The notes under the pieces were generated by a model. That model was given only the letters and a program-made list of their open reading frames with translations. It had not been told where the DNA came from and did no database searches. The translations under genes were made by a program, and so were the position numbers. From assembly GCF_002163715.1 (NCBI RefSeq), contig NZ_CP015699.1, positions 1-16,489 on the forward strand: a DNA stretch of 16,489 nt, in the 5' to 3' direction. Positions 394 through 16,489 of the stretch are shown in pieces. This DNA is from Curvibacter sp. AEP1-3. Lineage in GTDB: Bacteria > Pseudomonadota > Gammaproteobacteria > Burkholderiales > Burkholderiaceae_C. Position 1 is the stretch's first letter. Each line of letters starts with the position of its first letter.

Positions 394-447
394 GGCACGA
401 TAGATATGTTTACATTCCCCTACGGGGAACGCTAACATATCCGTGCC
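394..447. repeat. oriT hairpin (nested interrupted inverted repeat)
   Basis: Arms nest in order: GGCACG (394-399) with CGTGCC (442-447); GATATGTT (403-410) with AACATATC (434-441); and TTCCCC (415-420) with GGGGAA (424-429) around a 3-base loop. The three arm pairs are separated by short unpaired ATA, TACA and CGCT segments. Such a structure next to the nick is typical of MOBP origins, where it is bound by the relaxosome and by the relaxase at termination. Confidence 0.75.
409..438 (+). promoter_or_regulatory. Promoter candidate for the mobC-relaxase operon inside the oriT hairpin
   Basis: TTTACA (409-414), an 18-base spacer and TAACAT (433-438) form a plausible sigma-70 promoter 86 bases before mobC. 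Both hexamers lie in the hairpin arms, so relaxosome binding would compete with RNA polymerase. Match quality is modest (5/6 and 4/6). Confidence 0.35.
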
Positions 448-502
448 AAAGGGTTCCCCTTTGAAACCCGGCGCTAACGCGCCAGAGCGGCCACGAGGCC
501 GC
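448..502 (+). promoter_or_regulatory. Three consecutive hairpins in the mobC leader
   Basis: Perfect small inverted repeats follow one another: AAAGGG/CCCTTT (448-462, loop 3), GGCGC/GCGCC (470-483, loop 4) and GCGGCC/GGCCGC (487-502, loop 4). They end nine bases before the GGAGG ribosome binding site of mobC (512-516). None has a U-tract, so they look like leader structure or protein sites, not terminators. Confidence 0.5.
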
Positions 503-523
503 GCCACCTACGGAGGCCAGTGC

Positions 524-889
524 ATGAGCAGCAAGACAAAGGACGATGCGGAGAAGCTAACCAGGCCGGTTAGCTTTCGCCTGACTGCCGCCGACCATGC
601 CGCCTACTTGGCGAAGGTCGAGGCATCCGGGTTGAAGCCATCCGCGTTTTTCCGCGATGCCGTCTTGACCAACAAAACGCAGATCGTCGCCCGACCGAAG
701 GCCAGCCCGGAGCGGGGCCGACTTGTCTATCTGATGAACAAGACAAGCAACAACATTAACCAGCTTGCGCACCGCGCAAACGCTGACCACCTAGCCGGGG
801 TCATATCAGAGACGACCTATATTCGCATTTTGGCCGAGCTTGAAACGCTGGCTCATTACATGGTATTGGCGGTTAAAAATGCTGATTAG
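524..889 (+). CDS. mobC: MobC-family relaxosome accessory protein
   Basis: The product is 121 aa. The ATG at 524 is preferred because GGAGG sits eight bases upstream; the frame opens earlier at 443 but inside oriT structure and without a ribosome binding site. Residues about 16-50 (RPVSFRLTAADHAAYLAKVE, then SGLKPSAFFRDAV) look like a ribbon-helix-helix DNA-binding fold. The C-terminal half carries the MobC-type motif around NKTSNNINQLAHRAN. MobC/TraJ-like proteins bind oriT next to the nick, open the strands locally and recruit the relaxase. The gene is first in the rightward operon and overlaps the relaxase start by 11 bases, which suggests translational coupling. Confidence 0.85.
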   Translation: MSSKTKDDAEKLTRPVSFRLTAADHAAYLAKVEASGLKPSAFFRDAVLTNKTQIVARPKASPERGRLVYLMNKTSNNINQLAHRANADHLAGVISETTYIRILAELETLAHYMVLAVKNAD

Positions 890-3578
890 AGTTAGTGGCG
901 GGAAAGATGGTATTGCCGATTATTTAGTTAACGGTCAGAAAGAAGGCCGTGAATTTTCCCGTGACGAGTTGGACGAGCGGGTAATTTTGGATGGAAGATT
1001 AGAAAAAACGGATGAAATAATCCGAGGGATGCAAAATGATGGCGATAGATATTTGCATATTACTTTGGCCTTCAAGGAGGAAGTTCTCGACGATGCTGTT
1101 CTAAAAGGAATCACCAGCGATTTTAAAAAATTCGCTATGAGTGCATACGATGATGATGAATTTGATTTTTATGCCGAAGCACATATACCAAAAATAAAAA
1201 CATACGTTAATAAAAAAACAGGCGAATTGGTGGAGCGTAGGCCGCATATTCACATAGTCATACCGCGCGCCAACCTTTTATCCGGCACTTTAATGGAGCC
1301 TCTTTGTAAGCCTGTTTTAAATAAAAAAACCGGGCTTATGGAGGTTCCAGAGGGGCAGCTTAAATGGCTTGATGCTTTCCAGGAGAGTACCAACCTCAAG
1401 TATGGACTTTCTAGCCCTAAAGATAATCGACGCCTTGAATTCACGGGAGAGAGCGAGATTATCAGTAGATATAAGGGCGACTTGTTCCAGGGCAGTGCAA
1501 AGGACTTGAAAGAGCGGATTTTGTCGGACGTACTAGACCGCAAAATATCCGATTACGACAGCTTTAAATCCTTGCTGGCCGAGCATGGTGCGACGCGCAC
1601 GCGCAACGCGGGCAAGGAAAACGAATATCAAAATGTGAAGCCGGAAGGGCGCGATAAGGGCGTAAATCTTACGGAGCATGTATTCAGCAAAGCATTCATA
1701 GAGCTTTCAGACATTGAAAAGCGCCGTGCTCTTGCTGACCGTGGAAGCATAGCTTACGAAGAACAAAAACAACCACGAGCAGCCGCACCGGAGTTAGATG
1801 CGACGTTGAAAGAGTGGCACGAAATCCGTGCGCCTGAACTGAAATACATCAATAGCGGAAGCCGCAAGCTATATGCCGCCTATCGTGCCGCCGACCAAGA
1901 CGGGAAGCGGGCAATTCTGGCCGACAGGGCCGCACGTTTCTACGCCAAACACCAAGAAGCCCGCGCGCATGGCGTAGGCACCTTAAAAACCTTCAATGAC
2001 AAGGAACCACGCAATGAACGACCAGACTACGACCGAATCAGCACCGAACGAGCCAAGCCAGGACAGCGCGCCGCCGCTGTATATCAGTCCGACCTTGAAA
2101 AATCTGGACGCGAAGCACCGCCCCGACCCCTCACCAGCGTGCGAAACCTGTCCGGCGTCGGTATGGTTCAGCACGAGCGATCAACTCAAATGCTTTTGCA
2201 GCCGAATGCATCTGATCGTGTGGGACGAGAGCGAGCCGCCGATTCTGAAATGCGACGGGCGCGAACTGGCGATTCTCGCGCTCATGGAGGCCAAGAGCTA
2301 GGAGCCGGAAAGCGCAGGAGCGCCGACAGCGTGACCGGCCAGCTTTTGGCCGACCAGCAGGAGCGCGCGACCCAGGCCAAGGCCGCGAGCCTGGCCGAGT
2401 TCGCACAGATTAAGCGAGAGCTTGATGCGCGCCGCTTGCTGGCCCACCTCAGCAAGACGCACGGCGTTATCCCCGACAAGTACGAAGTCACCAAGGGCAA
2501 AGACGGAGGCGACCGCATCAAGGCCGGTTCGCGCAACCTCAATGTGTCCGACTTCCTCACCCAAGAAATGCGCCTTCCCTTCACCGAAGCCGCGCCGATC
2601 TTGCGCCAGGTGTATGCAGCACAGCAGGGCCGCGAAGTGATCGAGGCGAAGTCAGGGCCACGCCGCGAGCTTTGGGAAGCCTTCCGCAAGGCGCAGCCCG
2701 ACCAGGCCGAGCAGAACGCCAAGGAGAGGCAAGCGCAGCGCAACCATGCAAAGGAACGGCTTGATGCGATCAAAGCCGATTGCAAGAAAAAGTGCCGCGA
2801 AATCGACAGCGACAGCACCAGAACAGGCAAAGAAAAAAAAGCCGCGAAGTCCATAGCTCGGATGGAGCGCGTTACCAAGGAAATGGCCTTGCGTGAGGCC
2901 GTGACTGCCGAACGTCAACAACTCAAAGAGAAGCACCGCCAGCCCTATCAAGAGCGTTACCGCGCCTTCCTGGCCGAGCGCGCGAACAAGGGCGATGAAA
3001 ACGCCCTTGCCGAACTTCGCCGCCAGCGTGATGCAAGCCCGGCACCGACCGGGCCGAACAGCATCGAGGGCGTGAGCCACAAGCGCGACGAGAAGGACAG
3101 GGCCGCGCACCTGGCGCGCGCACTGGCCTACAGCATCGACCGCGCGGGCAATGTCACCTATTACGCCGACCAGACCAAGCGCCGCGCGCTTGTCATCGAC
3201 TCGGGCCAGCGCGTGACCGTGGCCGCAGCCAAAGACAGCCAGGCCGTGGAAACCGGCTTGCGCCTGGCCGTGCAGAAGTTCGGCCCCGGTTTGAAGATCG
3301 AGGGCAGCGACGAATTCAAGCGCCAGGTGATCGAAGCGGCCTTGAAGACCGGCCTTCGCGTGGAGTTCGACAGCAAGGCCATGAACGACGAATTGACACG
3401 CCGCCGCGCAGAGCGCGACGACTTGCAAGCCCGCGGCAAAGCCTTCATTGCCAGCGAGAGAGAGAAAGCAGAGCAGACGAAGGCACCGAAGCAACCGACC
3501 CCGGAGAAGACACCGGAGCCGGAGCGCACACAGCAACCCGAACCCGAGCGCCGGAAGCCGCGCGGACATGAACGATAG
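879..3578 (+). CDS. Conjugative relaxase with C-terminal LPD7 domain
   Basis: The product is 899 aa from the ATG at 879 (MLIRVSGGKDG), inside the end of mobC. An upstream in-frame ATG at 840 would add 13 residues, but start 879 begins at the family's motif I. The probable nicking tyrosine is Y15 (GIADYL). The metal-binding histidines look like H102 (AEAH) and H123/H125 (RPHIHIV), with an insertion between them. Residues about 280-640 are low-complexity linker, partly overlapped by a second reading frame. Residues 744-840 (AYSIDRAGNVTYYAD, ALRLAVQKFG-like) match the LPD7 domain of large plasmid relaxases, and the tail is rich in E, K and P. The protein cuts oriT, stays attached to the strand and is exported through a type IV channel. 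The first 900 bases are far more AT-rich than the rest, suggesting a mosaic origin. Confidence 0.9.
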   Translation: MLIRVSGGKDGIADYLVNGQKEGREFSRDELDERVILDGRLEKTDEIIRGMQNDGDRYLHITLAFKEEVLDDAVLKGITSDFKKFAMSAYDDDEFDFYAEAHIPKIKTYVNKKTGELVERRPHIHIVIPRANLLSGTLMEPLCKPVLNKKTGLMEVPEGQLKWLDAFQESTNLKYGLSSPKDNRRLEFTGESEIISRYKGDLFQGSAKDLKERILSDVLDRKISDYDSFKSLLAEHGATRTRNAGKENEYQNVKPEGRDKGVNLTEHVFSKAFIELSDIEKRRALADRGSIAYEEQKQPRAAAPELDATLKEWHEIRAPELKYINSGSRKLYAAYRAADQDGKRAILADRAARFYAKHQEARAHGVGTLKTFNDKEPRNERPDYDRISTERAKPGQRAAAVYQSDLEKSGREAPPRPLTSVRNLSGVGMVQHERSTQMLLQPNASDRVGRERAADSEMRRARTGDSRAHGGQELGAGKRRSADSVTGQLLADQQERATQAKAASLAEFAQIKRELDARRLLAHLSKTHGVIPDKYEVTKGKDGGDRIKAGSRNLNVSDFLTQEMRLPFTEAAPILRQVYAAQQGREVIEAKSGPRRELWEAFRKAQPDQAEQNAKERQAQRNHAKERLDAIKADCKKKCREIDSDSTRTGKEKKAAKSIARMERVTKEMALREAVTAERQQLKEKHRQPYQERYRAFLAERANKGDENALAELRRQRDASPAPTGPNSIEGVSHKRDEKDRAAHLARALAYSIDRAGNVTYYADQTKRRALVIDSGQRVTVAAAKDSQAVETGLRLAVQKFGPGLKIEGSDEFKRQVIEAALKTGLRVEFDSKAMNDELTRRRAERDDLQARGKAFIASEREKAEQTKAPKQPTPEKTPEPERTQQPEPERRKPRGHER
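2014..2301 (+). CDS. Candidate nested gene inside the relaxase: 95-aa cysteine-motif protein
   Basis: This frame lies entirely inside the relaxase gene but in a different frame. The ATG at 2014 has AAGGA eight bases upstream; an ATG at 1996 is in frame but lacks a site. The protein looks like a real folded one: an acidic, proline-rich N-terminus (1-42), then C43-x2-C46, C60-x-C62 and C80, with hydrophobic and aromatic residues between (PASVWFS, RMHLIVWDE, CDGRELAILALMEA). This suggests a small zinc-binding domain. By contrast the relaxase frame here is low-complexity linker. Nested transfer genes are known (RP4 traH within traI; mobB within mobA of IncQ). I do not recognise the function. Codon choice in the second half looks like genuine coding. 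Confidence 0.55.
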   Translation: MNDQTTTESAPNEPSQDSAPPLYISPTLKNLDAKHRPDPSPACETCPASVWFSTSDQLKCFCSRMHLIVWDESEPPILKCDGRELAILALMEAKS

Positions 3579-3589: not shown

Positions 3590-3970
3590 ATGCAGCACAC
3601 CAACCAGGCCGACCCGGTGGCCGACAGCAAGCGCGAGTTTTCGCGCGCCGTGGACGACATCAAGGCGGGCATTCTGGCCGCTGGCGAACCGCGCCCGGAG
3701 TGGACGCAGGACGAGGCCATAGCCTTTGAATGCGCGCGCGAAGTCATCACCGACATGATGGCAATTTCCACGGGGCGCATTGCCGATGAAATGGAGAAGG
3801 AAGCGCCGGACGCCGACCGCCTGGCCGCGTTGCGCGCCGACCGCTCCAAGCTGGCCCAGGAGCGCGCCGCGCTCCATGTTGGAGACCATGCCGACATTGC
3901 CCGCATTCGCACCGACTACGGGGCAACCGTGCGCGCCTGGCGCGCTGAACACACCAAGGGGGAAAACTGA
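3590..3970 (+). CDS. Small hydrophilic protein of unknown function between relaxase and coupling protein
   Basis: The product is 126 aa. The ATG at 3590 has AGGAG nine bases upstream (3577-3581) and lies 11 bases after the relaxase stop. The TGA stop (3968-3970) shares its last base with the ATG of the coupling protein, so the two are probably translated together. It is predicted mostly helical and charged (EFSRAVDDIKAGIL; REVITDMMAISTGRIADEME; LAALRADRSKLAQERAAL), with no signal peptide, membrane segment or known motif. The position suggests a relaxosome or coupling-protein accessory factor. That role is inference from neighbours only. Confidence 0.8.
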   Translation: MQHTNQADPVADSKREFSRAVDDIKAGILAAGEPRPEWTQDEAIAFECAREVITDMMAISTGRIADEMEKEAPDADRLAALRADRSKLAQERAALHVGDHADIARIRTDYGATVRAWRAEHTKGEN

Positions 3971-5610
3971 TGGAAGCTATAGGAATATTCGGGCCGCTGC
4001 TGGTCGTGCTGTTGGTCAATCTGACCCTTGGCACAGTCTCCAAAACGCTGGCAAGCGTGGTGACGTGGGCCATTGTCATTGCGCCTGTTGTCTGGAGCCT
4101 CAACGAGCTACGCAAGGCCGGTAGGGATGCCCTGGCCCCTGCTAATTGGGGCTGGACGTTGAGCCATGTTCTTATCCTGGCCCCTGCTGTTCTTGTCGTC
4201 TATTGGATGCACACAGATCACCAGATATGGAGCTTGGGCGCGCTGCTGGTCTATGGCTTCCTGGCAAAAGGGGCTTGGCTGTCCATGCTGCAAAGCCTCA
4301 AGTTTTCGGGAGCCGGAGGCGGGGCAGGGGATGAAGTGGTGCGCCGTGGTTCGCGCGTGATCGAGGCCGACGAACTGGACGCGCGCACGTCCGACCGCAA
4401 GCGCCGTGATGATGCTGATGTGACCATCGGAGGCGTGACCATCCCGCGCATGTTGGAGGCCCAACACTTCCTAATTTCCGGCACCACGGGCGCGGGCAAA
4501 ACACAGGTCATCAATGGGATGCTTCGCAGCATCCGCAAGCGTGGAAACCGCGCCGTCATCGCTGACCCCGCAGGCGGTTTTTATGCCCGCTTCGGCCAGC
4601 CTGGCGACTTGCTTTTTAACCCCTTCGACCGCCGCACCGTCGATTGGTCGCCCTTCGCTGAAATCCGCGCTGACTACGATTGCGAGCGCATCGCCAAGGC
4701 GATCATTCCCGACTTGGACGGAGGCGAAAGCGCGCAATGGCAACTGTTCGCGCAAACGCTACTCGCCAAGGCCATGCTATCCATGCACCGCAACGGCGAA
4801 CGCTCCATGAAGCGCCTCATGCACTGGATGGCAAGCGCCGACCAGAAGGAGCTAGAGCCGCTTTTGTCCGGCACCGCCGCCGCCGTCATGTGCCAAAAGG
4901 GCAATGACAAGATGCTGAACAACACGCGGGCAACGATGCTGCCTTACCTCAGCATCTTTGACTATCTGCCCGACGAAGGCCAGTTTTCAATCCGTCAATT
5001 CATTCAAGAGGATTGGCGCGACAACTGGCTATTCATCACCTACCGCGATGACCAAATGGGGATGCTTCGCAACCTCGTGGCCACGGCTTTGGAAATGGCA
5101 CTGGTGGAGGGCTTGAGCCTGTCAGAGAACCAGGAGCGGGGCTTGTGGTACGTCATGGACGAAGTGGACTCACTCGGCAAAGTGACCAGCCTTCGCGCTG
5201 GCCTGACGAAGCTACGCAAGTACGGCGGGCGCTGTGTGCTTGGCCTGCAAACCGTGGCGCAGCTTCGCACGACCTACGGGCGCGACGAAGCGCAAACCTT
5301 GATCGCCAATACATCGGTGAAGTGCATCCTTCGCGCGGGCGACTCTGAAACCGCCAAGAACATGGAAAACGAACTAGGCGAGCAAGAGATTGAGCGAACC
5401 CAGGTCAACGACTCGTTCAGTACAAGCGACAACGGCCAGAGCCAGAGCCAAAACACATCCACCCAAGTGGTGCGGCAATCCGCCGTGCTGGCTTCGGAAA
5501 TCATGGGCCTGCCCGATCTGCAAGGCTTCTTGAAGATCCCCGGCGATGAAATCGCCCGCATCAAGGTTGAGTATGTCGCCATGCCCGACCAGAACCCCGC
5601 TTTTCAGTGA
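3970..5610 (+). CDS. Type IV coupling protein (TrwB/TraD/VirD4-like ATPase)
   Basis: The product is 546 aa. It links the relaxosome to a type IV secretion channel and pumps DNA by ATP hydrolysis at the inner membrane. The N-terminal 115 residues contain about four hydrophobic segments (residues 5-20, 27-45, 64-78 and 86-98 approximately). Walker A is GTTGAGKT at 171-178 and Walker B is LWYVMDE at about 392-398. NPFDRRTVDWSPF and LGLQTVAQL fit the TraD/TrwB DNA-binding family. The length is normal for TrwB-like proteins. It shares one base with the preceding gene. Coupling protein plus relaxase without channel ATPases marks the plasmid as mobilizable, with its own coupling function. Confidence 0.92.
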   Translation: MEAIGIFGPLLVVLLVNLTLGTVSKTLASVVTWAIVIAPVVWSLNELRKAGRDALAPANWGWTLSHVLILAPAVLVVYWMHTDHQIWSLGALLVYGFLAKGAWLSMLQSLKFSGAGGGAGDEVVRRGSRVIEADELDARTSDRKRRDDADVTIGGVTIPRMLEAQHFLISGTTGAGKTQVINGMLRSIRKRGNRAVIADPAGGFYARFGQPGDLLFNPFDRRTVDWSPFAEIRADYDCERIAKAIIPDLDGGESAQWQLFAQTLLAKAMLSMHRNGERSMKRLMHWMASADQKELEPLLSGTAAAVMCQKGNDKMLNNTRATMLPYLSIFDYLPDEGQFSIRQFIQEDWRDNWLFITYRDDQMGMLRNLVATALEMALVEGLSLSENQERGLWYVMDEVDSLGKVTSLRAGLTKLRKYGGRCVLGLQTVAQLRTTYGRDEAQTLIANTSVKCILRAGDSETAKNMENELGEQEIERTQVNDSFSTSDNGQSQSQNTSTQVVRQSAVLASEIMGLPDLQGFLKIPGDEIARIKVEYVAMPDQNPAFQ

Positions 5611-7579: not shown

Positions 7580-7591
7580 CACAAAAGCGAA

Positions 7592-7616
7592 CGGCAAGGG
7601 GTTACGACCCTTGCCG
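7592..7616. terminator. Stable hairpin after the toxin gene
   Basis: CGGCAAGGG (7592-7600) and CCCTTGCCG (7608-7616) are perfect 9-base arms around a 7-base loop, 13 bases after the toxin stop. No U-run follows on either strand, so it may protect the toxin mRNA 3' end or attenuate read-through and is not a classic rho-independent terminator. Confidence 0.5.
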
Positions 7617-7650
7617 CTCTACCACGAAACCACCAGCAAAGGATACTTTC

Positions 7651-7926: not shown

Positions 7927-7952
7927 CATGGACAGCGCCGCCACAAAGAAAA

Positions 7953-7984
7953 AAGGAGCGCCGAACGGGCATTCGGCACTCCTT
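7953..7984 (-). terminator. Rho-independent terminator on the minus strand, upstream of repA
   Basis: AAGGAG-c-GCCGAA (7953-7965) pairs with TTCGGC-a-CTCCTT (7972-7984) around a 6-base loop with one mismatch. Read leftward, the stem is followed by TTTTTTCTTT (complement of 7945-7954), a good intrinsic terminator. No protein gene runs leftward into it, so it suggests a short antisense transcript from the repA leader. Confidence 0.55.
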
Positions 7985-8026
7985 AGCCAGTTCATGCGGG
8001 TAGCAACCGCGCCCCTTTCGGGGTGT

Positions 8027-9264: not shown

Positions 9265-9275
9265 GCCTTGGGGCT

Positions 9276-9293
9276 TTTTCGCTGACGCGAAAA
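9276..9293. repeat. Palindrome TTTTCGCT-GA-CGCGAAAA, copy 3
   Basis: Starts 12 bases after the repA stop. The left arm ends in T instead of G; otherwise it is the same element as the other copies. It is followed by CCGGGACGC, also seen beside copy 5. Confidence 0.75.
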
Positions 9294-9424
9294 CCGGGAC
9301 GCCCTTCCAGGCGCGCGCCTTCGCGCTTGGTCGCTGCGCGACTGGCCGCAAGCGGCCACCCTACAGACCGCCCTAGCCTTGCGCCATCCTGGCGCTATCC
9401 AGGCCCGCCGCAAGCGCCGGGCAA

Positions 9425-9456
9425 CGTGCAATCTGTCCCGCGTGTAATCTGTCCCG
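9425..9456. repeat. Tandem 16-base repeat upstream of the iterons
   Basis: Two directly adjacent copies of CGTGYAATCTGTCCCG differing at one base. They may be a second class of initiator or host-factor site, separate from the TTGTGCTATCACCCAC iterons. Confidence 0.65.
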
Positions 9457-9475
9457 AGCGGCCACGCAGCCGCTA

Positions 9476-9614
9476 TTGTGCGATCACCCACGCAGACCCC
9501 GGCGCGGCTTGTTGTGCTATCACCCACACCTGTGGACGGGCTTGTGCTATCACCCACGTTTTCCTGTGGATGGACTTGTGCTATCACCCACAAGCCTATT
9601 GTGCTTTCACCCAC
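9476..9614. repeat. Five origin iterons TTGTGCTATCACCCAC
   Basis: Same-orientation copies start at 9476 (CGAT variant), 9512, 9542, 9576 and 9599 (CTTT variant). Start-to-start spacing is 36, 30, 34 and 23 bases, less regular than usual. CTGTGGA sequences between copies (about 9530 and 9564) resemble parts of DnaA boxes. Location just after repA fits RepA-binding iterons. Confidence 0.9.
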
Positions 9615-9720
9615 ACGGCACAAAAAAAGACGCTTAAAAATCAACAGCTTAGACCACTTTTCCCGAGCCGTAACGCGCGCGCGCGGTTTTTTAACTTTTA
9701 AATTCTTTAACGTCTTTGCG
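9476..9720. other. oriV: Vegetative replication origin (oriV)
   Basis: It combines the iteron cluster (9476-9614) with an AT-rich block at 9687-9710 (TTTTTTAACTTTTAAATTC, then TTTAA) that can act as the unwinding element. The two are joined by a run of six CG dinucleotides (9674-9685). The next gene is more than 700 bases away. The arrangement repA, iterons, AT-rich region is standard for iteron plasmids. Confidence 0.8.
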
Positions 9721-10410
9721 GCCTAAAGGCCGGGGCACCCCTGCGGGGTTCCCCCACCCTGCGGGCGGCTCCCCCTCCCGTCTATCGAGGCCCCCGCAAG
9801 CGGGGGCAGGATGGTGCCCCCGGTCGCAGCACCACCGCCCAGGCTACGAACACCGACAGCGGTTCACCAGGCGATGAAAACCGGCTTTCAAGAAAAGACC
9901 GGCGACGGCCTGCGCGTTGAACAGCCGCCCAGGTGTGCAAAGGCTGCAAGCCTCCGGCGGCCCTACCGGGGGTCACTCGCCGTGAGGCATCAGCCGGGGG
10001 ATGCTTAACGGCCTGCGGCCTACACCCCCCGGCTATGCCGGTAGCGTTGGGTCGTTCCAGCCGCGTCAAGGGCCGGGCTTCGCCCTGAAATCCGCGCCCG
10101 TTCGGTGCTCGGGCTGCGCCCTGCGCTCCGCATGCGGCCTGTGGTTTCACCCTTGACCCGTCTTCCACTCAAAAACCGTGACGGATGACCTACGTTTCGT
10201 GTCGTTTGACCTATGGCGCGACAAATCCGGGGTTAGTCATTGCTGTGAGGATGCCAGCCGCGCCCGTTTTCCGGGCCGTGGAGCGATTTTTTAGACCTTG
10301 CCTATAGCGAGGCACCGCCACGCGGTGAAAAACGCGCCTACGGGCTTCTTTTTGGCCGCTGCTGGCGTAGGTCAAACGTCACGCGCTGGCCGGGACTGCA
10401 AAAAAGCCTC
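9721..10410. other. GC-rich non-coding region rich in inverted repeats
   Basis: No gene can be supported. Short hairpins include GGCCTAAAGGCC (about 9720-9731), GCCCCCGC-AA-GCGGGGGC (9790-9807) and CACCGC-CAC-GCGGTG (10313-10327). One arm of a long inverted repeat lies at 10143-10171. TGACCTA occurs at 10186 and 10207 and inverted at 10368-10374. Open frames here have no ribosome binding sites and contain low-complexity translations. Confidence 0.6.
10143..10171 (-). repeat. Left arm of a long inverted repeat flanking kfrA
   Basis: The reverse complement starts TGAGTGGAAGACGGGTCAAG and matches 11418-11446 over 29 bases without a mismatch. After two mismatched bases another 8 bases match (10133-10140). 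Confidence 0.85.
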
Positions 10411-10457
10411 ATTAGTTCGTTTATTTGTTTGTTTATTAGTTTGTTTGTTGCTATAAT
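10411..10457 (+). promoter_or_regulatory. kfrA promoter with overlapping direct repeats
   Basis: TTGTTT (10429-10434), 17-base spacer and consensus TATAAT (10452-10457) make a strong promoter. ATTAGTTCGTTT (10411-10422) and ATTAGTTTGTTT (10435-10446) are repeated 24 bases apart, within a T-rich GTTT/GTTTA series. KfrA proteins of IncP plasmids are known to repress their own promoter, so these repeats are the probable operator. Confidence 0.75.
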
Positions 10458-10487
10458 AGAGGCATCAACTCACCAAAGGACACCGCC

Positions 10488-11420
10488 ATGCGCCCCGCCG
10501 AATTTGCACCCGAAGCGATCATCCAAGCCGGTCAAGAACTGCAAGCGACTGGCCGCAACATCACCGGCTTTGCCCTTCGCCAGAAGGTCGGCGGCGGCAA
10601 TCCGACCAGGCTTAAACAAGTCTGGGATGAACACATCAACAGCCAAACCACGGCCAAGGCCGAGCCGGTTGCAGAACTGCCGGTTGAGGTTGCCGAGGAA
10701 GTGGCGAGCGTGACCAAGGCGCTTACCGAGCGGCTGGCCGCGCTGGCCGTTGAGTTGAACGACAAGGCAGTAAAGGCCGCAGAACGCCGGGTTCATGAAG
10801 TGGTGCGCGCCGCTGGCGAGCAGCGCGAGCAGGCCGAGCGCGAACTAGCCGACGCATCGCAGACCGTGGACGACTTGGAAAACAAGCTGGATGAGGCCGC
10901 AAGCGCCGCCGCCGCACTGGAAAAGCGCCTGGCCGACACCCAGGCCAGCCACCAGGCGCAAGCCGTCGAACTGGCCCAGGTGCGCGAACGCCTGGCACTG
11001 ATCGAGCAGACGGCCAAGGCCGCGACCGAGCAACACGCCGCCGAGCTTGCCCGCTTGAATGCCAGCATCGAGAGCGAACGCCAACGCCACCAGCAGGAAG
11101 CCGAGCAGCTACGCGCCGAACTGGCGAAGGTGCAGGCCAAGGCCGACGCCGCCGAGCAATCGCACCAGGAGCAGCGCAAGACCGCCGCCCAGGAAGCCCA
11201 CCGAGCCGCCGAACACATGACCAAGGCCCAGGCCGAACGCGACAGCGCCCGCAAAGAGGCCAGCGCAGCCCGCGAGGAAGCCGCCAAGCTGCGCGGCCAG
11301 GTGGAAGCCTTGCAGACCCAAGCCGCCGACCAGTTGCGCGCCCTGGCAATGCGCCAGGCACCGGAGGCCGAAGGCGAGGCCAAGCCACCGAAGACAACCA
11401 AGGCGAAGAAGCCGGAATGA
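10488..11420 (+). CDS. kfrA: KfrA-type DNA-binding, coiled-coil plasmid stability protein
   Basis: The product is 310 aa; ATG 10488 has AAAGGA (10475-10480) upstream. Residues about 10-55 form an HTH region (IIQAGQELQATGRNITGFAL, RQKVGGGNPTRLKQVWDEH) typical of the KfrA N-terminal domain. Residues about 75-285 are one long alanine/glutamate/glutamine-rich coiled coil (VDDLENKLDEAASAAAALEK; EQLRAELAKVQAKADAAEQ), followed by a basic lysine-rich tail (PPKTTKAKKPE). KfrA represses its own gene and forms filament-like multimers that support stable plasmid inheritance. The length fits the family. The gene has its own strong promoter and is followed by a KleE-like gene. Confidence 0.9.
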   Translation: MRPAEFAPEAIIQAGQELQATGRNITGFALRQKVGGGNPTRLKQVWDEHINSQTTAKAEPVAELPVEVAEEVASVTKALTERLAALAVELNDKAVKAAERRVHEVVRAAGEQREQAERELADASQTVDDLENKLDEAASAAAALEKRLADTQASHQAQAVELAQVRERLALIEQTAKAATEQHAAELARLNASIESERQRHQQEAEQLRAELAKVQAKADAAEQSHQEQRKTAAQEAHRAAEHMTKAQAERDSARKEASAAREEAAKLRGQVEALQTQAADQLRALAMRQAPEAEGEAKPPKTTKAKKPE

Positions 11421-11446
11421 GTGGAAGACGGGTCAAGGGTGAAACC
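11418..11446 (+). repeat. Right arm of the long inverted repeat flanking kfrA
   Basis: Begins within the kfrA stop codon (TGA 11418-11420) and matches the reverse complement of 10143-10171 perfectly. Homology resumes at 11449-11456 and again around 11456-11461, the left arm carrying about 11 extra bases. Confidence 0.85.
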
Positions 11447-11483
11447 GGAGGCCGCAGGGCGCGAAGTGAGAAAGGGGTACAGC

Positions 11484-11864
11484 ATGGGCAACATCGTTAG
11501 ATTTCCGAAGCGTCCAGAAGGGCCGCAGTCTGCCGAACTCGACGCCGACAACATCAAGGCCGCAGTGCGTTTGCCGCGCCCTTCCCTGCCCGCTTTGCTG
11601 GCCTGGCTGTGGCGTGTGCTGCGCTTGCCCTTGTTCCTTGTCCTGTACTGGCTTCGCCTGCCCATCGTTGGGCTGTGCAACCTCATTTCACGCCCTGCCC
11701 TGCTGGCCTTCATGGGCGGCTTTTTCCTCATTCCGGCAGCTTCGCCGCATCGGCATATCGTTTGGGTCTTCGGAGGCGTGAGCCTGGCCGCTTTCGCCCT
11801 TGGCTGGCTCTATGACTCGCTTTTGCTGGCCTTGGCCCCGGAGGGGGTTGTTATCGGTCTTTGA
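11484..11864 (+). CDS. KleE-like small inner-membrane protein
   Basis: The product is 126 aa. ATG 11484 is chosen because AAAGGGG (11471-11477) lies upstream and the protein then begins MGNIVRFPKRPEG, the kind of N-terminus seen in KleE proteins of IncP-type plasmids; an upstream in-frame GTG at 11421 lies in the inverted repeat. Two or three hydrophobic segments follow: about residues 36-68 (LLAWLWRVLRLPLFLVLYWL), 72-85 (LLAFMGGFFLIPAA) and 92-115 (WVFGGVSLAAFALGWLYDSL). KleE belongs to the IncP stable-inheritance functions. Co-transcription with kfrA is likely because the gap is only 63 bases. The KleE link rests mainly on the N-terminal motif and membrane topology. Confidence 0.65.
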   Translation: MGNIVRFPKRPEGPQSAELDADNIKAAVRLPRPSLPALLAWLWRVLRLPLFLVLYWLRLPIVGLCNLISRPALLAFMGGFFLIPAASPHRHIVWVFGGVSLAAFALGWLYDSLLLALAPEGVVIGL

Positions 11865-11866
11865 GA

Positions 11867-11884
11867 TTTTCGCGCCCGCGAAAA
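11867..11884. repeat. Palindrome TTTTCGCG-CC-CGCGAAAA, copy 4
   Basis: Identical to copy 1; starts three bases after the stop of the KleE-like gene. Confidence 0.8.
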
Positions 11885-12164
11885 ACAGGATGCCCGCACA
11901 CCGGCCCGGCTTCGCCAGGCCACGCCCTTACCCACCGTGCCGCCGCCGCTTCGCGCCGTCGCCTATGGACAACCGGCCTCTTGCAATGCTTAGGGCTTGC
12001 GGCCCGGTTGCCCACAGGTTCGCCCCGTGGATAAGGGCTAACACCGGATGCCAGGCGCAAAGCGCCCTGCACCAAGACCCCGACCCAACACCTTGCCCAC
12101 CCTAAAGACCAGCATCGGGCGGGCAATCGACACCAAGACGGCCAGAAGGCCATGCGCCCCGAAG

Positions 12165-12189
12165 CCGGACAGTCCGGGGGACTGTCCGG
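12165..12189. repeat. Perfect hairpin with 11-base arms
   Basis: CCGGACAGTCC (12165-12175) and GGACTGTCCGG (12179-12189) around GGG. No T-run on either side, so it may be a protein site, a recombination site or a transcription barrier. Confidence 0.75.
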
Positions 12190-12296
12190 TTTGCCGGTAG
12201 GAGCCGGGGCGGTAGCCCTGGCACCCGCCAAAGCGGGGGCCACTCCGAAGCCCGGCAAAGGGTATGGCCTGAATCACTGAACGCCGAGAGTCCAGA

Positions 12297-12314
12297 TTTT
12301 CGCGGACGCGAAAA
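12297..12314. repeat. Palindrome TTTTCGCG-GA-CGCGAAAA, copy 5
   Basis: Perfect 8-base arms around GA, immediately beyond the virB5 terminator when read leftward; its A-run overlaps the T-tract of that terminator. Confidence 0.8.
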
Positions 12315-12337
12315 AAAACCGGGACGCATCCCGGTTT
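12311..12337 (-). terminator. Rho-independent terminator of the virB6-virB5 operon
   Basis: Read leftward: AAACCGGGA (12337-12329), TGCG loop, TCCCGGTTT (12324-12316) and continuing T's to 12311. It lies 35 bases after the virB5 stop and is a textbook intrinsic terminator. Confidence 0.85.
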
Positions 12338-12371
12338 GAAAAGCCGCTGTCACACGGAAAAATCTAATAGG

Positions 12372-13103
12372 TCAAGGCGTAACCGTAACGCGGGGAATGG
12401 GGCGATTGGTTCCCGCCATGCGAATGGACGTATCACGCGCTTGCATGTCACTGATCTTTTGTTCAGCTTGAACCAGCATCGACATAGCTTGAATCTTGGC
12501 ATGTTCGTTTTGAATAATGCCCTGCTCCGTGTTGATGCGGGCCTGTAGCTCTGCAATAGCCTTCGGGTCTTGTGTTTGGCTGACCTGGCTAATCATGTTT
12601 TCGAGGTTTTGCAGCCGTTGCGTTGCATCCGTATAGGCTTCCATGCTCAAAGCCTTCTGTGACGCTGCCCGGTTCAAATCCGCTGCCCACTGATCGGATG
12701 CCGACTGACTGCCAAAGTCTGACGGCGATAGCGTGGACGTAGATTGCTTGATGCTGTTGATCGAGCTTGCAAGGTTGCCATACGAACCACCGTTAGCCAG
12801 GCTCAAGAGCGTTTGCGCATCGGGCGGCAACATGCGCCGCGCCGCCTGATAAGTCGGGTCATTCAGCAATGCAGAGAAGCCACGCCCGCCCGTGGTGTTT
12901 TGAATCTGTTGCTGCATTTGCTGGATTTGCTGCACCATTTGTTGGTACTGCTGCGCCCAGGCCGCGACCTGCTGGATTGCTTGCGCAAGCTGCGTTTGTT
13001 GAACTGCTACGCTTGTAGCGTCGATAACCGGAATGCCTGCAAAGGCTTGGCTACCGCCAAAAATACCGACCACGAAGGCCAGGATACGAAGAAATTTTTT
13101 CAT
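12372..13103 (-). CDS. virB5: VirB5/TrbJ-family type IV secretion minor pilin
   Basis: The product is 243 aa; minus-strand ATG at 13103, with AAGGG seven bases upstream. It has a signal peptide (MKKFLRILAFVVGIFGGSQAFA, cut probably after AFA at residue 22), then a long Q-rich helix typical of VirB5 (QLAQAIQQVAAWAQQYQQMV, QIQQMQQQIQNTTGGRGFS). A second helical stretch follows (QRLQNLENMISQVS, INTEQGIIQNEHAKIQAM). VirB5 proteins sit at the tip of conjugative pili and help in target-cell contact. The last 15 residues (MAGTNRPIPRVTVTP) nearly repeat a motif in the nearby lipoprotein. It is last in a leftward operon with a VirB6 homologue, without any VirB4, VirB11 or core-complex genes. Confidence 0.85.
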   Translation of the reverse strand: MKKFLRILAFVVGIFGGSQAFAGIPVIDATSVAVQQTQLAQAIQQVAAWAQQYQQMVQQIQQMQQQIQNTTGGRGFSALLNDPTYQAARRMLPPDAQTLLSLANGGSYGNLASSINSIKQSTSTLSPSDFGSQSASDQWAADLNRAASQKALSMEAYTDATQRLQNLENMISQVSQTQDPKAIAELQARINTEQGIIQNEHAKIQAMSMLVQAEQKISDMQARDTSIRMAGTNRPIPRVTVTP

Positions 13104-13144
13104 GGTTGCTACCCTTGAAAGTTGAGAGGTTGAAAAACTGAAAA

Positions 13145-14203
13145 CTAGGCCGCTCTGCGACGGCTTGAGGCTGACGTTATCTTGCGATAGATAGCCATCG
13201 GAGCGCCTGCGCGTGTGCCCTGCACGCTGCCCCCCTCTGACCCCTTACCGAAACGACCAGCCGCCCCACGAAGACCGCCATAAGCCGCCCTGCCCGCTTT
13301 GTAGCCTGCCTTTGCCATGCGCGGGGTGTTGCTGGCCGCGCCCTTGATCTTGTCGTAAGCCCATCCCAATGGACTGGCCGAGCCAGTGGACAGAGAGCCG
13401 CCAATGCTTCCGGCTAGTACAGGCATTTTGAAGATCGTGAACACACCGGCAATGGCGTATATCACCAGTGCGCTAATTGCCGACATGGTGACGATTCCGC
13501 TATTCGCCGCAGCATCCGATTGTGTGGCGTCATAGGTTGCGCTCATGAGCTTAAATATGAGTGTTGCAGCCATAACGGACATGACGATTGCAAGTCCCTC
13601 CGTGATAACTGTTCCTAGCCAAGCATCGAACCAACGGCGCGTTGATTCAAACATCAGCCCAAGAATGAAAAGCGGGCCAATGGCTAGCGTGATTGCAAGC
13701 CCATATTTTGCTGTGATGATGACAAGGCCAGTGATCGCCGCGCTAATCCACGTCGTGAGGTATACCGTGATTGACAGGAAATAAGCGCCTATGTTGGCGA
13801 GGCTTGCTTTCTCCCAGGCTTGGCCTCCAAGGAGATTGCCTTTATCTAGCATCTGATCGAGCATTTGCGCTGAATCAGTGACGGCCCCCCCTTGCAACGT
13901 GCTTGCTAATTCTGTCGGCCACTGGAAAAGGAAGTTTGAAATATAGCTGGCATAAAGTGCTGAATTTGTTGCCAGCGAGAAGATGGTGAAGATTTTGACA
14001 ATGCGCCAAACACCATCCATAACCGGTTCTTGAATCATGCCACGCATCATCGACCACCCCCACAGAATCACATAGAGGATGAGCAATTGCCGTCCAAAAC
14101 TTTGGAGGGTTCCTGCCATAGTGGCCGCAATATCGGTAACGTACTTTGCTACCGCTGCATCGACATACTGGAACAGCGTTTGAAAAACTTGTGACGAGTC
14201 CAT
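13145..14203 (-). CDS. virB6: VirB6/TrbL-family type IV secretion inner-membrane protein
   Basis: The product is 352 aa; ATG at 14203 shares one base with the stop of the upstream lipoprotein gene. Five to six hydrophobic segments are visible: about residues 38-55 (LLILYVILWGWSMM), 68-85, 137-160 (YFLSITVYLTTWISAAITGL), 162-185 (YGLAITLAIGPLFILGLMF), 195-218 and 238-260 (ISALVIYAIAGVFTIFKM). The central GPLFILGLMFESTRRWFDAW is the usual VirB6/TrbL signature region. The tail is a basic, glycine-rich cytoplasmic segment. VirB6 proteins form the inner-membrane part of the DNA channel. It lies between the lipoprotein and virB5. Having it without VirB4, VirB8 or VirB10 is unusual. Confidence 0.88.
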   Translation of the reverse strand: MDSSQVFQTLFQYVDAAVAKYVTDIAATMAGTLQSFGRQLLILYVILWGWSMMRGMIQEPVMDGVWRIVKIFTIFSLATNSALYASYISNFLFQWPTELASTLQGGAVTDSAQMLDQMLDKGNLLGGQAWEKASLANIGAYFLSITVYLTTWISAAITGLVIITAKYGLAITLAIGPLFILGLMFESTRRWFDAWLGTVITEGLAIVMSVMAATLIFKLMSATYDATQSDAAANSGIVTMSAISALVIYAIAGVFTIFKMPVLAGSIGGSLSTGSASPLGWAYDKIKGAASNTPRMAKAGYKAGRAAYGGLRGAAGRFGKGSEGGSVQGTRAGAPMAIYRKITSASSRRRAA

Positions 14204-14409
14204 TATTTACCCCCGTCTTTTTTCGGTTGAGGGGTGTTATCTGGCGCGATCACAATACGAGGGATAGGGCGATCTTTTCCGGCCATCTTTTGGCTTGTTT
14301 CCGTGCCTTCCTTGATGGTCTTATCCAGTTCGCTTTCCTTGTCGTTGCAGCCTGCCAGGGAGAGGGCGACGACCGCGCCAATGCAAGCCATGAGAATGGT
14401 TTTTTTCAT
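14203..14409 (-). CDS. Small lipoprotein, candidate entry-exclusion protein (TrbK/Eex-like)
   Basis: The product is 68 aa. ATG at 14409 is preferred to a TTG at 14415 because GGGGAG lies eight bases before it. A lipoprotein signal peptide is clear: MKKTILMACIGAVVALSLAG with lipobox LAGC and lipidated C21. The rest is short and hydrophilic, containing MAGKDRPIPRIVIAP, which nearly matches the end of the VirB5 homologue, and a lysine-rich end. Small lipoproteins next to virB5/virB6 genes (TrbK of RP4, Eex of IncN/W plasmids) block entry of related plasmids. The exclusion role here is inference from size, lipobox and position. It is translationally linked to the genes on both sides. Confidence 0.75.
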   Translation of the reverse strand: MKKTILMACIGAVVALSLAGCNDKESELDKTIKEGTETSQKMAGKDRPIPRIVIAPDNTPQPKKDGGK

Positions 14410-14411
14410 GG

Positions 14412-14723
14412 TCAATACTCCCCGCGCTCAACGATGACACCGGCTTGCGCCTGGCGCTCTAGCATCCGCTCGAAAGCGAGATAAGCCGCCATCACACAAA
14501 TGCCGATACCGCCGAAAACAAGAGGCAAGGCCGCTGTCAGCAAGACATTCAGTCCAAAGATGCCCGCGAACTCCGCGACGTGGCCGCTTGCCGCAGCCGT
14601 GCGCCCTTGTTCCGCAATGTCCGACATTGGCCCGGTAATCAATGCCCATTGCCCGGCCAGGAGTGCCACAACAGCAATGCCCGTTGCTGCTTGTGCCACC
14701 TGTTTCAAAGTCAATTTTTTCAT
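14412..14723 (-). CDS. Small membrane protein, first gene of the VirB6-VirB5 operon
   Basis: The product is 103 aa from ATG 14723 with AAAGGA (14737-14732) upstream; a GTG just before it would add one residue. Two hydrophobic segments, about residues 12-31 (ATGIAVVALLAGQWALIT) and 55-83 (FGLNVLLTAALPLVFGGIGI then CVMAAYLAF), flank a hydrophilic stretch of about 22 residues. The C-terminus is charged (ERMLERQAQAGVIVERGEY). Size and two-helix form recall VirB2 pilins or small VirB3-like proteins, but no specific signature is seen. It starts an operon with the lipoprotein, VirB6 and VirB5 homologues, so it probably works with them at the inner membrane. Confidence 0.75.
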   Translation of the reverse strand: MKKLTLKQVAQAATGIAVVALLAGQWALITGPMSDIAEQGRTAAASGHVAEFAGIFGLNVLLTAALPLVFGGIGICVMAAYLAFERMLERQAQAGVIVERGEY

Positions 14724-14758
14724 CACATTTTTCCTTTACGGTTGCTACCCGATTGATC

Positions 14759-14778
14759 GTCTAATACCTGAATTAGAC
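14759..14778. promoter_or_regulatory. Operator-like inverted repeat GTCTAAT-N6-ATTAGAC in the virB6 operon promoter
   Basis: Perfect 7-base arms. On the minus strand it overlaps the -10 and spacer of the candidate promoter TTGCAA (14789-14784), 17 bases, TATTAG (14766-14761). Repression by a plasmid or helper regulator is plausible. Confidence 0.5.
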
Positions 14779-14786
14779 TACTGTTG

Positions 14787-14832
14787 CAAGCGAAATGCAC
14801 ATGTCAAGCCGCTTGTCAAGTTGTTTCGCTTG
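14787..14832. promoter_or_regulatory. Upstream regulatory cluster: CAAGCGAAA inverted repeat and TGTCAAG copies
   Basis: CAAGCGAAA (14787-14795) is inverted at 14824-14832 (TTTCGCTTG). Between them lie TGTCAAGC (14802-14809) and TTGTCAAG (14813-14820). The TGTCAAGC motif is shared with 6748 and 8051. The cluster sits just before the leftward operon's promoter. Confidence 0.45.
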
Positions 14833-14838
14833 TCAGTT

Positions 14839-15414
14839 TTATTTCCCCCTTTCCGCGTTAATCGTCGCCCTGGCTTTGTTGTCCAACTTGTCCCATGAAG
14901 CCGCTACCACTTTGCCCAAGTCGGTAAAGGCCGCGTCTCGCTTGTCATAGGTAAGCAGGTTGGCACCGAGTACCACGCCGCCGCCGACCATGCCGCAGGC
15001 CAGGCAGAGGGCGAGCGTTCGCCAAATGCTTTGTTGTTGCGACCTCAGAACCTTTTGCACTGGTGCGGCTATTTCTGTTTGCACCGTGTTTTTAACGGTG
15101 CGCTCTACCTCTGTCAGTGCTGCCCGTATTGCTGCGCTTGAATCGCGGTCAAATTGAGCCTTAGCCGCTTGCGCGTCCTTTTCCATTGCCGCGCGTACTT
15201 TGTCGCCCTGGGCATTGGTATAGGCTTCTAGTTGCGCTTTGTAGGCATCCCCGGCTTTGATGAGCAAACCGACAAGGCCGGTAATCTTGGCCTCGACTTC
15301 CTCAACTTGACCAGGCAGGACGCCTTTTAGCGACTCGACGGAATCATGCAACCGGCCAATATCACCGAGCATTTCCGCAATGAGCGCATCACGGGCTGTA
15401 GGTTCTGCCGCCAT
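14839..15414 (-). CDS. Coiled-coil membrane protein, TraM-like by position
   Basis: The product is 191 aa; ATG at 15414 with AAGGGG nine bases upstream. Residues 1-125 are predicted helical and coiled (EMLGDIGRLHDSVESLKGVL; LEAYTNAQGDKVRAAMEKDA; AAIRAALTEVERTVKNTVQT). One membrane segment follows at about 130-152 (TLALCLACGMVGGGVVLGAN). The C-terminus is a short charged domain. It is third in the leftward operon after the TraK-like protein and the ATPase, the place of TraM in IncP Tra1. RP4 traM supports conjugation but its biochemistry is poorly known. A structural or membrane-anchoring role for the relaxosome or the plasmid is possible. Confidence 0.65.
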   Translation of the reverse strand: MAAEPTARDALIAEMLGDIGRLHDSVESLKGVLPGQVEEVEAKITGLVGLLIKAGDAYKAQLEAYTNAQGDKVRAAMEKDAQAAKAQFDRDSSAAIRAALTEVERTVKNTVQTEIAAPVQKVLRSQQQSIWRTLALCLACGMVGGGVVLGANLLTYDKRDAAFTDLGKVVAASWDKLDNKARATINAERGK

Positions 15415-15434
15415 GCTTAATTACCCCTTGTGGA

Positions 15435-16130
15435 TTATTTGAAAAGCGTTTTGAAAACCGCGTCCAATTCTTCGGTTACGCCAGCGGCCAGGCGCTTGAC
15501 GCCCACCATTTGCGCGAAGTGCAATTTTTCTTCCGAGTCCTTGGCCGTCTTAATCATTTCCTTGTAGTCGGTCGGGTCGTTGAGAATGTCTTTAATGCTC
15601 TTTTCCGCATCCTTCAACTTGCCGTAAATATCATTGACGTGAATAACGGCATCGGGGCGCAAAGTGAAATTCTTGGCCGCAGCATGGAATTCAAACAGGC
15701 CGGAGAAAATGCGCTCTGGCGTTTCGTCCAGTTCTACCATGTTGAACACAAGCCGGATTTTTTTGGCCGGAACGCCAATTTCTGCAAGCGCCTCAATCGT
15801 GCTGATGGTGTCGCGCTGCTGTTTGTGCTTGGAAATCGTCGGGACGACGAAATAATCAAATTCCTCGTGACTGCCCCGGTATTGCTTCATGAGTTGCACG
15901 AAGACTTCGACGTTAGAGGAGCCAACGTCCACCACGGCATCATCCATCATGGTCAATGCTTCTTGCAGTTCGCCAAACTGCTTACCCTTGATGGCTTCAT
16001 CTTGCGAGCCGTCCGAATTGATGGATTCGACCGGGATAATGTTTGCGTCTTTCAGGCGCGGGGCGAGCAGGTGCCGGGAAATAGTGGATTTACCAACATT
16101 ACCCGAGAAATTGATAACTGCAACTTTCAT
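15435..16130 (-). CDS. ParA/MinD-superfamily ATPase, TraL/StbB-like
   Basis: The product is 231 aa; ATG at 16130 overlaps the previous stop by four bases (ATGA), with AAGGAG upstream. The N-terminus MKVAVINFSGNVGKSTISRH carries a P-loop (GNVGKST, residues 10-16) that lacks the first signature lysine of typical ParA deviant Walker motifs. DDAVVDVGSSNVEVF at about 63-77 is the switch/Walker A' region, and YFVVPT follows near 93-98. StbB of R388 and TraL of IncP plasmids belong to this group; StbB is known to influence conjugation and plasmid positioning, but is not a full partition ATPase. No ParB gene exists here. So the role is more likely transfer- and stability-linked than classical partition. 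Confidence 0.8.
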   Translation of the reverse strand: MKVAVINFSGNVGKSTISRHLLAPRLKDANIIPVESINSDGSQDEAIKGKQFGELQEALTMMDDAVVDVGSSNVEVFVQLMKQYRGSHEEFDYFVVPTISKHKQQRDTISTIEALAEIGVPAKKIRLVFNMVELDETPERIFSGLFEFHAAAKNFTLRPDAVIHVNDIYGKLKDAEKSIKDILNDPTDYKEMIKTAKDSEEKLHFAQMVGVKRLAAGVTEELDAVFKTLFK

Positions 16131-16489
16131 TTACTTTTCTCCTTAATAAGGCGCTTGACGAGGGAATGAGCGGGGTTGCCTGGCTTGCCGATGTATTTAT
16201 CTGCGAGCAGTTCCCGCCGTTGTTTGCTGTCCAGTCCTGCCAGTTCATCGGCGGGGCTTACTTCGCCAGCTTCCGGCACGTCCGGGGAGACTGGCGACAC
16301 TTTCGGCGCTGCACTGGCCGGGGCCGTGTTCGCGCTTGGCATCGAGGCCGGGGAGGTGGAACCGTCCCGGCTTTTGATGAACTTTCGTACCGCTTCCGGC
16401 GATACCTTCAAGCCGTTGGCCGCGAGCCATTCGCACACCTGCCAATTGGCGTAGCCCTTGGCCTTCAGCTCGAAGATTTGCGCCTGGAA
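16127..16489 (-). CDS. TraK-like DNA-binding protein, remainder (same gene as 1-220)
   Basis: This is the rest of the gene that starts at 220; bases 16363-16489 duplicate 1-127 because the circle closes here. The residues unique to this end are a Pro/Ala/Ser-rich linker (TSPASMPSANTAPASAAPKV) and a compact C-terminal part (ADELAGLDSKQRRELLADKY, PAHSLVKRLIKEKSK). Over the whole circle it is 151 aa. The TGA stop (16127-16129) overlaps the ATG of the ATPase gene, so the two are translationally coupled. Confidence 0.7.
   Translation of the reverse strand, partial: FQAQIFELKAKGYANWQVCEWLAANGLKVSPEAVRKFIKSRDGSTSPASMPSANTAPASAAPKVSPVSPDVPEAGEVSPADELAGLDSKQRRELLADKYIGKPGNPAHSLVKRLIKEKSK

Follow-up and report, generated by a model that had tools for sequence, protein, structure and literature searches.

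A VirB5-lipoprotein-VirB6 operon on a Curvibacter plasmid as a possible portable exclusion-identity cassette

What use is an operon for VirB5 and VirB6 to a plasmid in which the remainder of the conjugation channel is not found? The question is raised by a plasmid of Curvibacter sp. AEP1-3 (NCBI RefSeq contig NZ_CP015699.1, positions 1 to 16,489; this whole stretch of 16,489 nucleotides is called the window), on which a minus-strand operon codes for a small membrane protein (TM2), a lipoprotein, VirB6 and VirB5, in that order, with a terminator at its end. An earlier reading made from the letters alone (hereafter the sequence-only reading) had claimed that the whole circle is visible, that VirB4, VirB8, VirB9, VirB10 and VirB11 are lacking, and that the operon codes for a protein with two hydrophobic stretches, a lipoprotein, a VirB6 and a VirB5 with tight couplings between genes; all of these claims stand. 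The window plasmid is the entire second contig of a 4.38-Mb genome. Since 127 exact bases are common to both contig ends (1-127 = 16363-16489), it is taken as circular, with a length of 16,362 bp and its ends duplicated in the contig. Family scans of its 20 main open reading frames (ORFs) found none of the five missing families. Searches by tblastn with R46, R388 and R751 queries (R388 itself as positive control; VirB1 and VirB7 not queried) found no VirB2, VirB3, VirB4, VirB8, VirB9, VirB10 or VirB11 on the plasmid, at a depth so shallow that its own VirB5 was missed. The operon consists of the following features.

14412..14723, minus strand: TM2, first gene of the operon (ATG start; GTG at 14726), an ORF for a small protein with two hydrophobic stretches seen by eye.
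14203..14409, minus strand: lipoprotein of 68 amino acids from ATG, or 70 from TTG at 14415; Eex-like by position, lipobox LAGC (by eye) and tail.
14242..14289, minus strand: tail of the lipoprotein, KMAGKDRPIPRIVIAP, a putative mimic of the VirB5 tail by tail comparison.
13145..14203, minus strand: VirB6, 352 amino acids, inner-membrane base of the stalk and likely exclusion target (PF04610, 139.9 bits, 1.3e-40, cut-off 25.9).
12372..13103, minus strand: VirB5, 243 amino acids, last gene of the operon (PF07996, 142.6 bits, 2.7e-41, cut-off 24.7; TIGR02791, 157.1 against a cut-off of 132.25).
12375..12422, minus strand: C-terminal tail of VirB5, RMAGTNRPIPRVTVTP, the motif copied by the lipoprotein (cognate lipoprotein score 66, rank 1 of 32).
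12316..12337, minus strand: intrinsic terminator 3' of VirB5, a 9-pair stem followed by a T run.

The gap from the TM2 stop to the lipoprotein ATG is 2 bases, and the VirB6 start overlaps the lipoprotein stop by its last base. The best Foldseek match of the predicted VirB6 structure is R388 TrwI/VirB6 (8rt9_F, E 7.1e-10). The lipoprotein is the key part of the set, and this role was overlooked by the sequence-only reading. A small lipoprotein directly upstream of virB6, in the same operon as virB5, has the position of an entry-exclusion (Eex) lipoprotein.

When proteins of one and the same plasmid are compared, the final ~15 residues of VirB5 match the tail at the C-terminus of this lipoprotein. 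The pairs of VirB5 tail and lipoprotein tail are MAGTNRPIPRVTVTP / MAGKDRPIPRIVIAP in the window plasmid, SEIPRVQITP / SEIPRVVLTP in its relative L015, and MNARRGFSPLKPVEF / MNARRGFSPLKPVTF and PSAPQTWRSVVR / PSEPQKWHSVVR in the Xanthomonas plasmids L004 and L050; among complete systems they are GMPTIQ / GMPKIR in R388 and SPARTW / SPKREW in R751, with a weaker pair in R46. The main set of 39 pairs was reduced to 15 VirB5 families (core identity <60%). The mean tail score over these families was 40.4 for cognate and 15.2 for non-cognate pairs, none of 20,000 permutations reached the observed sum, and the cognate lipoprotein was the best match in 14 of the 15. Control segments gave p 0.94 (VirB5 tail against the middle of the lipoprotein), p 0.55 (VirB5 residues 31-50) and, as a weak signal in the 15-family set, p 0.034 (VirB5[-45:-25], just before the tail). 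Chance or composition as the source of the tail match is ruled out by the permutations together with the control segments. After clustering at 90%, the cognate lipoprotein was best in 17 of 32 cases, and several of the others were beaten by a relative with a like tail. VirB5 residues 233-242 are predicted without secondary structure and with low confidence; the disorder of the tail is weak evidence because the VirB5 structure model is poor (mean predicted local distance difference test score 57).

The match was also seen in a set of 25 pairs in 14 families, R388 and R751 included, found after the idea arose; these families overlap in part with the main set, R388 clustering with the Bordetella plasmid L003 and the PromA group with a second clade of orphan sets (clade B). 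This later set gave z 9.9, with 0 of 20,000 permutations reaching the observed value and the cognate lipoprotein best in 12 of 14 families. For its assembly 45 EexN loci were examined, 13 of which had a VirB5 by a tail-less profile; removal of L052, which nearly duplicates L053, left 12. Where frames overlapped the lipobox frame was chosen, partly by hand, and L087, missed by the lipobox pattern, was added by hand. Without L087 the cognate was best in 11 of 13 families, and under four other length settings in 10-11 of 14 (z 9.4-9.9). Nine named VirB5 matches were also fetched after the idea arose. Three of them, L101-L103, were left out of the pair scoring, there being no lipoprotein gene to separate virB5 from virB6; L103 does have a lipoprotein ORF downstream of virB6, with no tail match (score 20). 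For TrbK, 42 loci were entered and 37 scored, 5 having no upstream ORF. The mean was 19.3 against 14.6 (0 of 20,000 permutations), with the cognate best in 3 of 37. All four TrbK loci with TrbJ upstream, identified without its tail, showed the match (scores 41-70; all of R751's VirB5 family), and the remaining 33 scored 7-22. Judged from these comparisons, tail mimicry appears general for EexN/TrbK systems. Identical residues of the two tails use the same codon in 99 of 237 cases, with 94.0 expected from codon usage (31 pairs; L080 left out). Because codon identity is at chance, the likeness is attributed to constraint at the protein level. Gene conversion or recent duplication is ruled out as its source on the same ground. 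No report of the orphan cassette or of the tail match was found in the titles and abstract openings searched, which took in few subscription papers and no preprints.

The tails also change in company with VirB6. Contig L016, from a Sideroxydans metagenome-assembled genome, is 94-100% identical to the window plasmid in DNA over most of the backbone, but identity drops to 49-65% over the lipoprotein gene and the greater part of virB6; other dips, to 63-90%, lie in parts of 6101-6300, 9801-10200 and 11701-11800, and 11901-12300 is absent. In amino acids the coupling protein and StbB are 100%, TM2 90% and the VirB5 core 86% identical, against 59% for the VirB5 tail, 46% for the lipoprotein and 52% for VirB6; MobC, relaxase, coupling protein and StbB all lie at 98-100%, the relaxase being compared over the parts covered by the available L016 sequence. 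Between Variovorax plasmid L002 and pXap41 (L049) of Xanthomonas, MobC (100%), relaxase (93%), coupling protein (99%), StbB (77%) and VirB5 core (94%) stand against VirB5 tail (32%), membrane protein (34%), Eex (69%) and VirB6 (52%), and the break falls inside virB5, ahead of its tail. A third pair, Achromobacter L045 and Sulfuriferula L043, has relaxase 96, coupling protein 95, StbB 63 and VirB5 core 83%, and VirB5 tail 27, membrane protein 72, Eex 53 and VirB6 43%. In pXap41 the VirB5 core is PromA-like (75%), and the tail (68%) and VirB6 (69%) are nearest to a P. syringae plasmid. In these comparisons the VirB5 tail, lipoprotein and VirB6 change together and the coupling protein and relaxase do not; single recombinations or fast divergence may have produced the joint change. 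Two further switches were observed. The type of StbB differs between L002 and Pseudomonas L007 (20% identity) and between L045 and Enterobacter L046 (42%), where relaxase and coupling protein are 95-100% alike, and by these identities StbB is a second interchangeable module. The membrane protein between virB5 and eexN differs between L002 and L007 (32%), with VirB5, Eex and VirB6 95-98% identical.

Partial Mantel tests on 22 dereplicated sets point the same way. Similarity of the VirB5 tail follows VirB6 identity given the VirB5 core (r 0.52, p 2e-4), the Eex tail follows VirB6 (r 0.32, p 4e-4), and the VirB5 tail does not follow the body of Eex (r 0.08, p 0.18). In R388 a VirB5 pentamer sits on top of a VirB6 pentamer, and the same paper cites loss of VirB5 in the absence of VirB6 (PMC9259494).

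Taken together, we judge it an even call that the operon serves as a portable cassette for the exclusion identity of a P-type (MPF_T) machine. The plasmid supplies relaxase and coupling protein itself and would borrow the remaining channel. Anatomy, spread, selection, mimicry and joint change can be read directly from the sequences. In the donor, VirB5 and VirB6 coded by the plasmid would replace the helper's subunits in the stalk; the mating pore would thereby take on the identity of the window plasmid and could escape exclusion by recipients that bear the helper, as SGI1 TraG does with IncC. In the recipient, the lipoprotein would display its mimic of the VirB5 tail and occupy the place where that tail normally docks, with VirB6 as its most probable location, thereby barring the same plasmid type from entry. 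VirB6 as the docking site, subunit replacement and escape from helper exclusion all belong to the inferred part of the model. More tentatively, P-type exclusion as a whole may be molecular mimicry, in which a lipoprotein copy of the cognate VirB5 tail competes for a docking site on VirB6, and whole mobilizable lineages would bear the code in a stand-alone cassette with which a helper's identity is overwritten. If exclusion works by such mimicry, VirB5 tail, Eex and VirB6 would therefore constitute the identity code of the machine.

Published experiments mostly agree with the mimicry reading. When RP4 genes were placed singly in recipients, resistance to the RP4 machine was reported for TrbJ (VirB5) and TrbK only (PMC11045733), which fits since both would carry the tail under this reading; R751 is the stand-in for RP4 in the tail comparison. 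For TrbK of pKPC_UVA01, exclusion is reported to be lost when the protein is truncated or ends at a premature stop close to its C-terminus, and the same is cited for RP4 TrbK (PMC8923210). How exclusion proteins stop the donor machine is still an open question according to a review, which also describes VirB5 as a pilus-tip protein that may contact the recipient (PMC12624023).

Known systems offer several parallels. The IncP trio TrbJ-TrbK-TrbL and the IncN/IncW trio VirB5-EexN-VirB6 have the same three functions, with the lipoprotein adjoining VirB6, and the tail match is strong in R751, clear in R388 and weak in R46. These trios lie inside a complete Tra/Trb machine, whereas that of the window plasmid stands alone and, as in the rest of its clade, in the order TM2-lipoprotein-virB6-virB5. 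Eex and TraG of SXT are a specific pair of recipient membrane protein and donor VirB6-type protein. TraS and TraG of the F plasmid are described as such a pair as well, as is proposed here. The F system is described as having no VirB5 (PMC12857230), and a mimic of a VirB5 tail is therefore impossible there. For SGI1, Carraro et al. (2017) have reported that TraG(S) allows transfer between IncC-bearing cells by evading exclusion (PMC5389848). Like its traN, traH and traG, the present set lets a mobilizable element code for replacement pore subunits that include a VirB6-type exclusion target, so that the comparison with SGI1 made by the sequence-only reading is a sound one as to composition. SGI1 differs in being a genomic island that uses another type of machine, with three pore genes and, as these are described, no exclusion lipoprotein among them; the window plasmid, unlike SGI1, has a VirB5 tip, an Eex-like lipoprotein and VirB6 in one operon, together with its own relaxase and coupling protein. 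The sequence-only reading had further suggested that the set re-tools the pilus tip and inner channel of a helper. The SGI1-like part of that suggestion is retained, and exclusion identity is favoured over general re-tooling of the tip because the lipoprotein tail copies the VirB5 tail and the trio changes together.

Several observations weigh against the proposal. With the tail accounted for, the VirB5 core follows VirB6 too (r 0.59, p 2e-4), so that VirB6 is not isolated as the receptor of the tail; such a correlation is expected of proteins that touch. The cognate lipoprotein ranks third of 15 in R46 and 15th of 32 in L080, and in the later set third in R46 and second of 14 in L063. The lipoprotein of the window plasmid stays under the cut-offs of both the EexN model (NF033894, 13.6 against 33 bits) and the TrbK model (TIGR04359, 12.8 against 23 bits). 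StbB differs in two of the three compared pairs (77% and 63%), and other modules therefore switch as well. TrbK of pKPC_UVA01 is reported to be needed in the donor too, which simple competition leaves unexplained, and to exclude IncP and IncN plasmids also (PMC8923210). The search for a matching helper that the sequence-only reading had called for returned no close relative of the window plasmid's VirB5 and VirB6 in the plasmid collection; eight complete systems reach at most 38% identity in the VirB5 core and 31% in VirB6, which leaves its clade with no helper candidate among them. Finally, the binding and transfer effects of this cassette are predictions. Elsewhere, IncW is a candidate helper for the Bordetella plasmid (VirB5 core 79% and VirB6 69% identical to R388), and PromA-, pUSA011- or X. 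citri 47-kb-type plasmids are candidates for clade B.

Matching tails are also needed for self-recognition, and the main live rival is a homotypic one, in which the lipoprotein tail binds the tail of the donor's VirB5 and traps or blinds the pilus tip, with VirB6 following as the seat of VirB5. The tip position of VirB5 would allow it to meet a recipient protein (PMC12624023), and protection by TrbJ in the recipient (PMC11045733) fits as well. We consider it unlikely, since the VirB5 tail tracks VirB6 even given the VirB5 core and the named exclusion partners, F TraG with TraS and IncC TraG, are described as VirB6-type proteins. A tip protein that may contact the recipient could instead bind a recipient envelope protein with its tail, the lipoprotein pre-occupying that receptor; near-identical VirB5 cores with divergent tails (94% core, 32% tail) speak against this, although the hosts (Variovorax and Xanthomonas) differ, and a change of tails with the donor protein VirB6 is not predicted by a host receptor, which makes the explanation improbable. 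It is highly doubtful that VirB5, VirB6 and TM2 poison the helper machine and suppress the helper's own transfer: the set does consist of partial machine subunits only, and foreign subunits could be dominant-negative, but a mobilizable plasmid that itself supplies relaxase and coupling protein depends on a helper channel that works, and the tail match of the lipoprotein is left unexplained. A decaying remnant of a conjugative plasmid, suggested by the likeness of the clade-B order virB5-x-eex-virB6 to that of complete operons such as the one of R388, is extremely improbable and is rejected on the open frames and purifying selection in relatives described below, to which the different gene order and own terminator of clade A and the 67 VirB6 clusters may be added.

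A similar set, again separated from the remaining channel, is present on 14 fetched plasmids that represent nine genera. They come from Variovorax (L002), Bordetella parapertussis (L003), Xanthomonas (L004, L005, L047, L048, L049 and L050), Pseudomonas (L007), Comamonas (L008), Sulfuriferula (L043), Pandoraea (L044), Achromobacter (L045, with the carbapenemase gene IMP-19) and Enterobacter (L046, with GES-5). No VirB2, VirB3, VirB4, VirB8, VirB9 or VirB11 was found by tblastn in these plasmids, in the window plasmid or in the available stretches of contigs L014-L016, at a depth too limited to recover VirB5 from the window plasmid, L004 and L005, or either VirB5 or VirB6 from L045 and L046. Comamonas L008 holds a 121-amino-acid piece of a TrbI-type VirB10, and in Vibrio L006 the mobilization backbone is similar but the cassette is missing. 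The order in clade A (the window plasmid and L013-L016) is TM2-lipoprotein-virB6-virB5; outside it the order is virB5, mostly a membrane protein, eexN and virB6. In the protein collection the VirB6 family forms 67 clusters, for 65 of which the longest contig is <26 kb, many contigs being fragments. Two viral contigs have StbB relatives; no VirB6 relative was found in viral contigs, nor a VirB5 or VirB6 of the present kind in the stretches of these two.

The frames of virB5, lipoprotein and virB6 are all open in 18 of 18 sets (the window plasmid, L014-L016 and the 14 named plasmids). Ratios of nonsynonymous to synonymous substitution rates (dN/dS) in four close clade-B pairs are 0.04-0.11 for virB5, 0.05-0.12 for the lipoprotein and 0.04-0.10 for virB6, as low as for the coupling protein (0.05-0.14 in three of the four pairs). 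Where computable in clade A, whose pairs are too distant for clean ratios, they are 0.11-0.17, 0.22-0.41 and 0.20-0.23. By these measures the set is intact and under purifying selection, in agreement with the sequence-only reading, which had held that it is not degenerate and had named decaying remnants in relatives as the finding that would count against it.

The backbone of the window plasmid comprises the following genes, along with a PaaA2/ParE pair, RepA and KfrA from family scans.

443..889, plus strand: MobC/NikA-like relaxosome protein (PF21983, 5.7e-11).
840..3578, plus strand: LPD7-domain relaxase (PF18821; tblastn matches to LPD7 proteins of plasmids typed MOBP).
3970..5610, plus strand: VirD4-type coupling protein (PF10412, 405 bits).
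15435..16130, minus strand: StbB (NF041292, 322 bits).

By family scans and tblastn the plasmid is without the VirB4 and core-complex genes that mark a self-transmissible MPF_T plasmid; with channel genes absent by family scans and the shallow tblastn, it belongs with non-self-transmissible elements that carry homologues of a helper's pore subunits. PF03135 (VirB4) has no match at E 1e-3 across the whole genome, chromosome included, and no resident helper was found in the host by this search for the VirB4 family only. PLSDB/MOB-suite labels 12 of the 14 like plasmids (L002, L004, L005, L007, L008, L043, L044, L045, L046, L047, L049 and L050) as 'conjugative, MPF_T'. Neither VirB4 nor a complete core complex was found on those 12, and the label may rest on the orphan VirB5 and VirB6. 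As both plasmids with carbapenemase genes are among them, this is relevant to surveillance. The tail match itself offers a short, precise candidate recognition element in EexN/TrbK systems and indicates VirB6 as the likely partner; exclusion groups, if the proposal is true, could become predictable from sequence. The match also occurs on classic plasmids and hints at how a plasmid may identify its own kind and turn it away.

In Vibrio sp. B1ASS3 plasmid 3 (L101), virB5 and virB6 follow each other at 2501-4257 with no lipoprotein between them, beside stbB and an LPD7 relaxase; this is perhaps an orphan pair without Eex. TM2 has no Pfam match, and a search of the plasmid collection at E 0.01 found no relative. 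It is 67-90% identical in L014-L016, is kept (90% to L016) where the lipoprotein diverges (46%), and is a clade-A protein. The sequence-only reading had called the operon regulated and terminated; the terminator was confirmed at 12337-12316, and regulation was not, no sigma-70 match having been found on the operon's strand. Upstream of TM2 lies one further feature, unique in the plasmid and kept in L016, which is a possible operator.

14759..14778, no strand: perfect palindrome GTCTAAT-N6-ATTAGAC with 7-bp arms.

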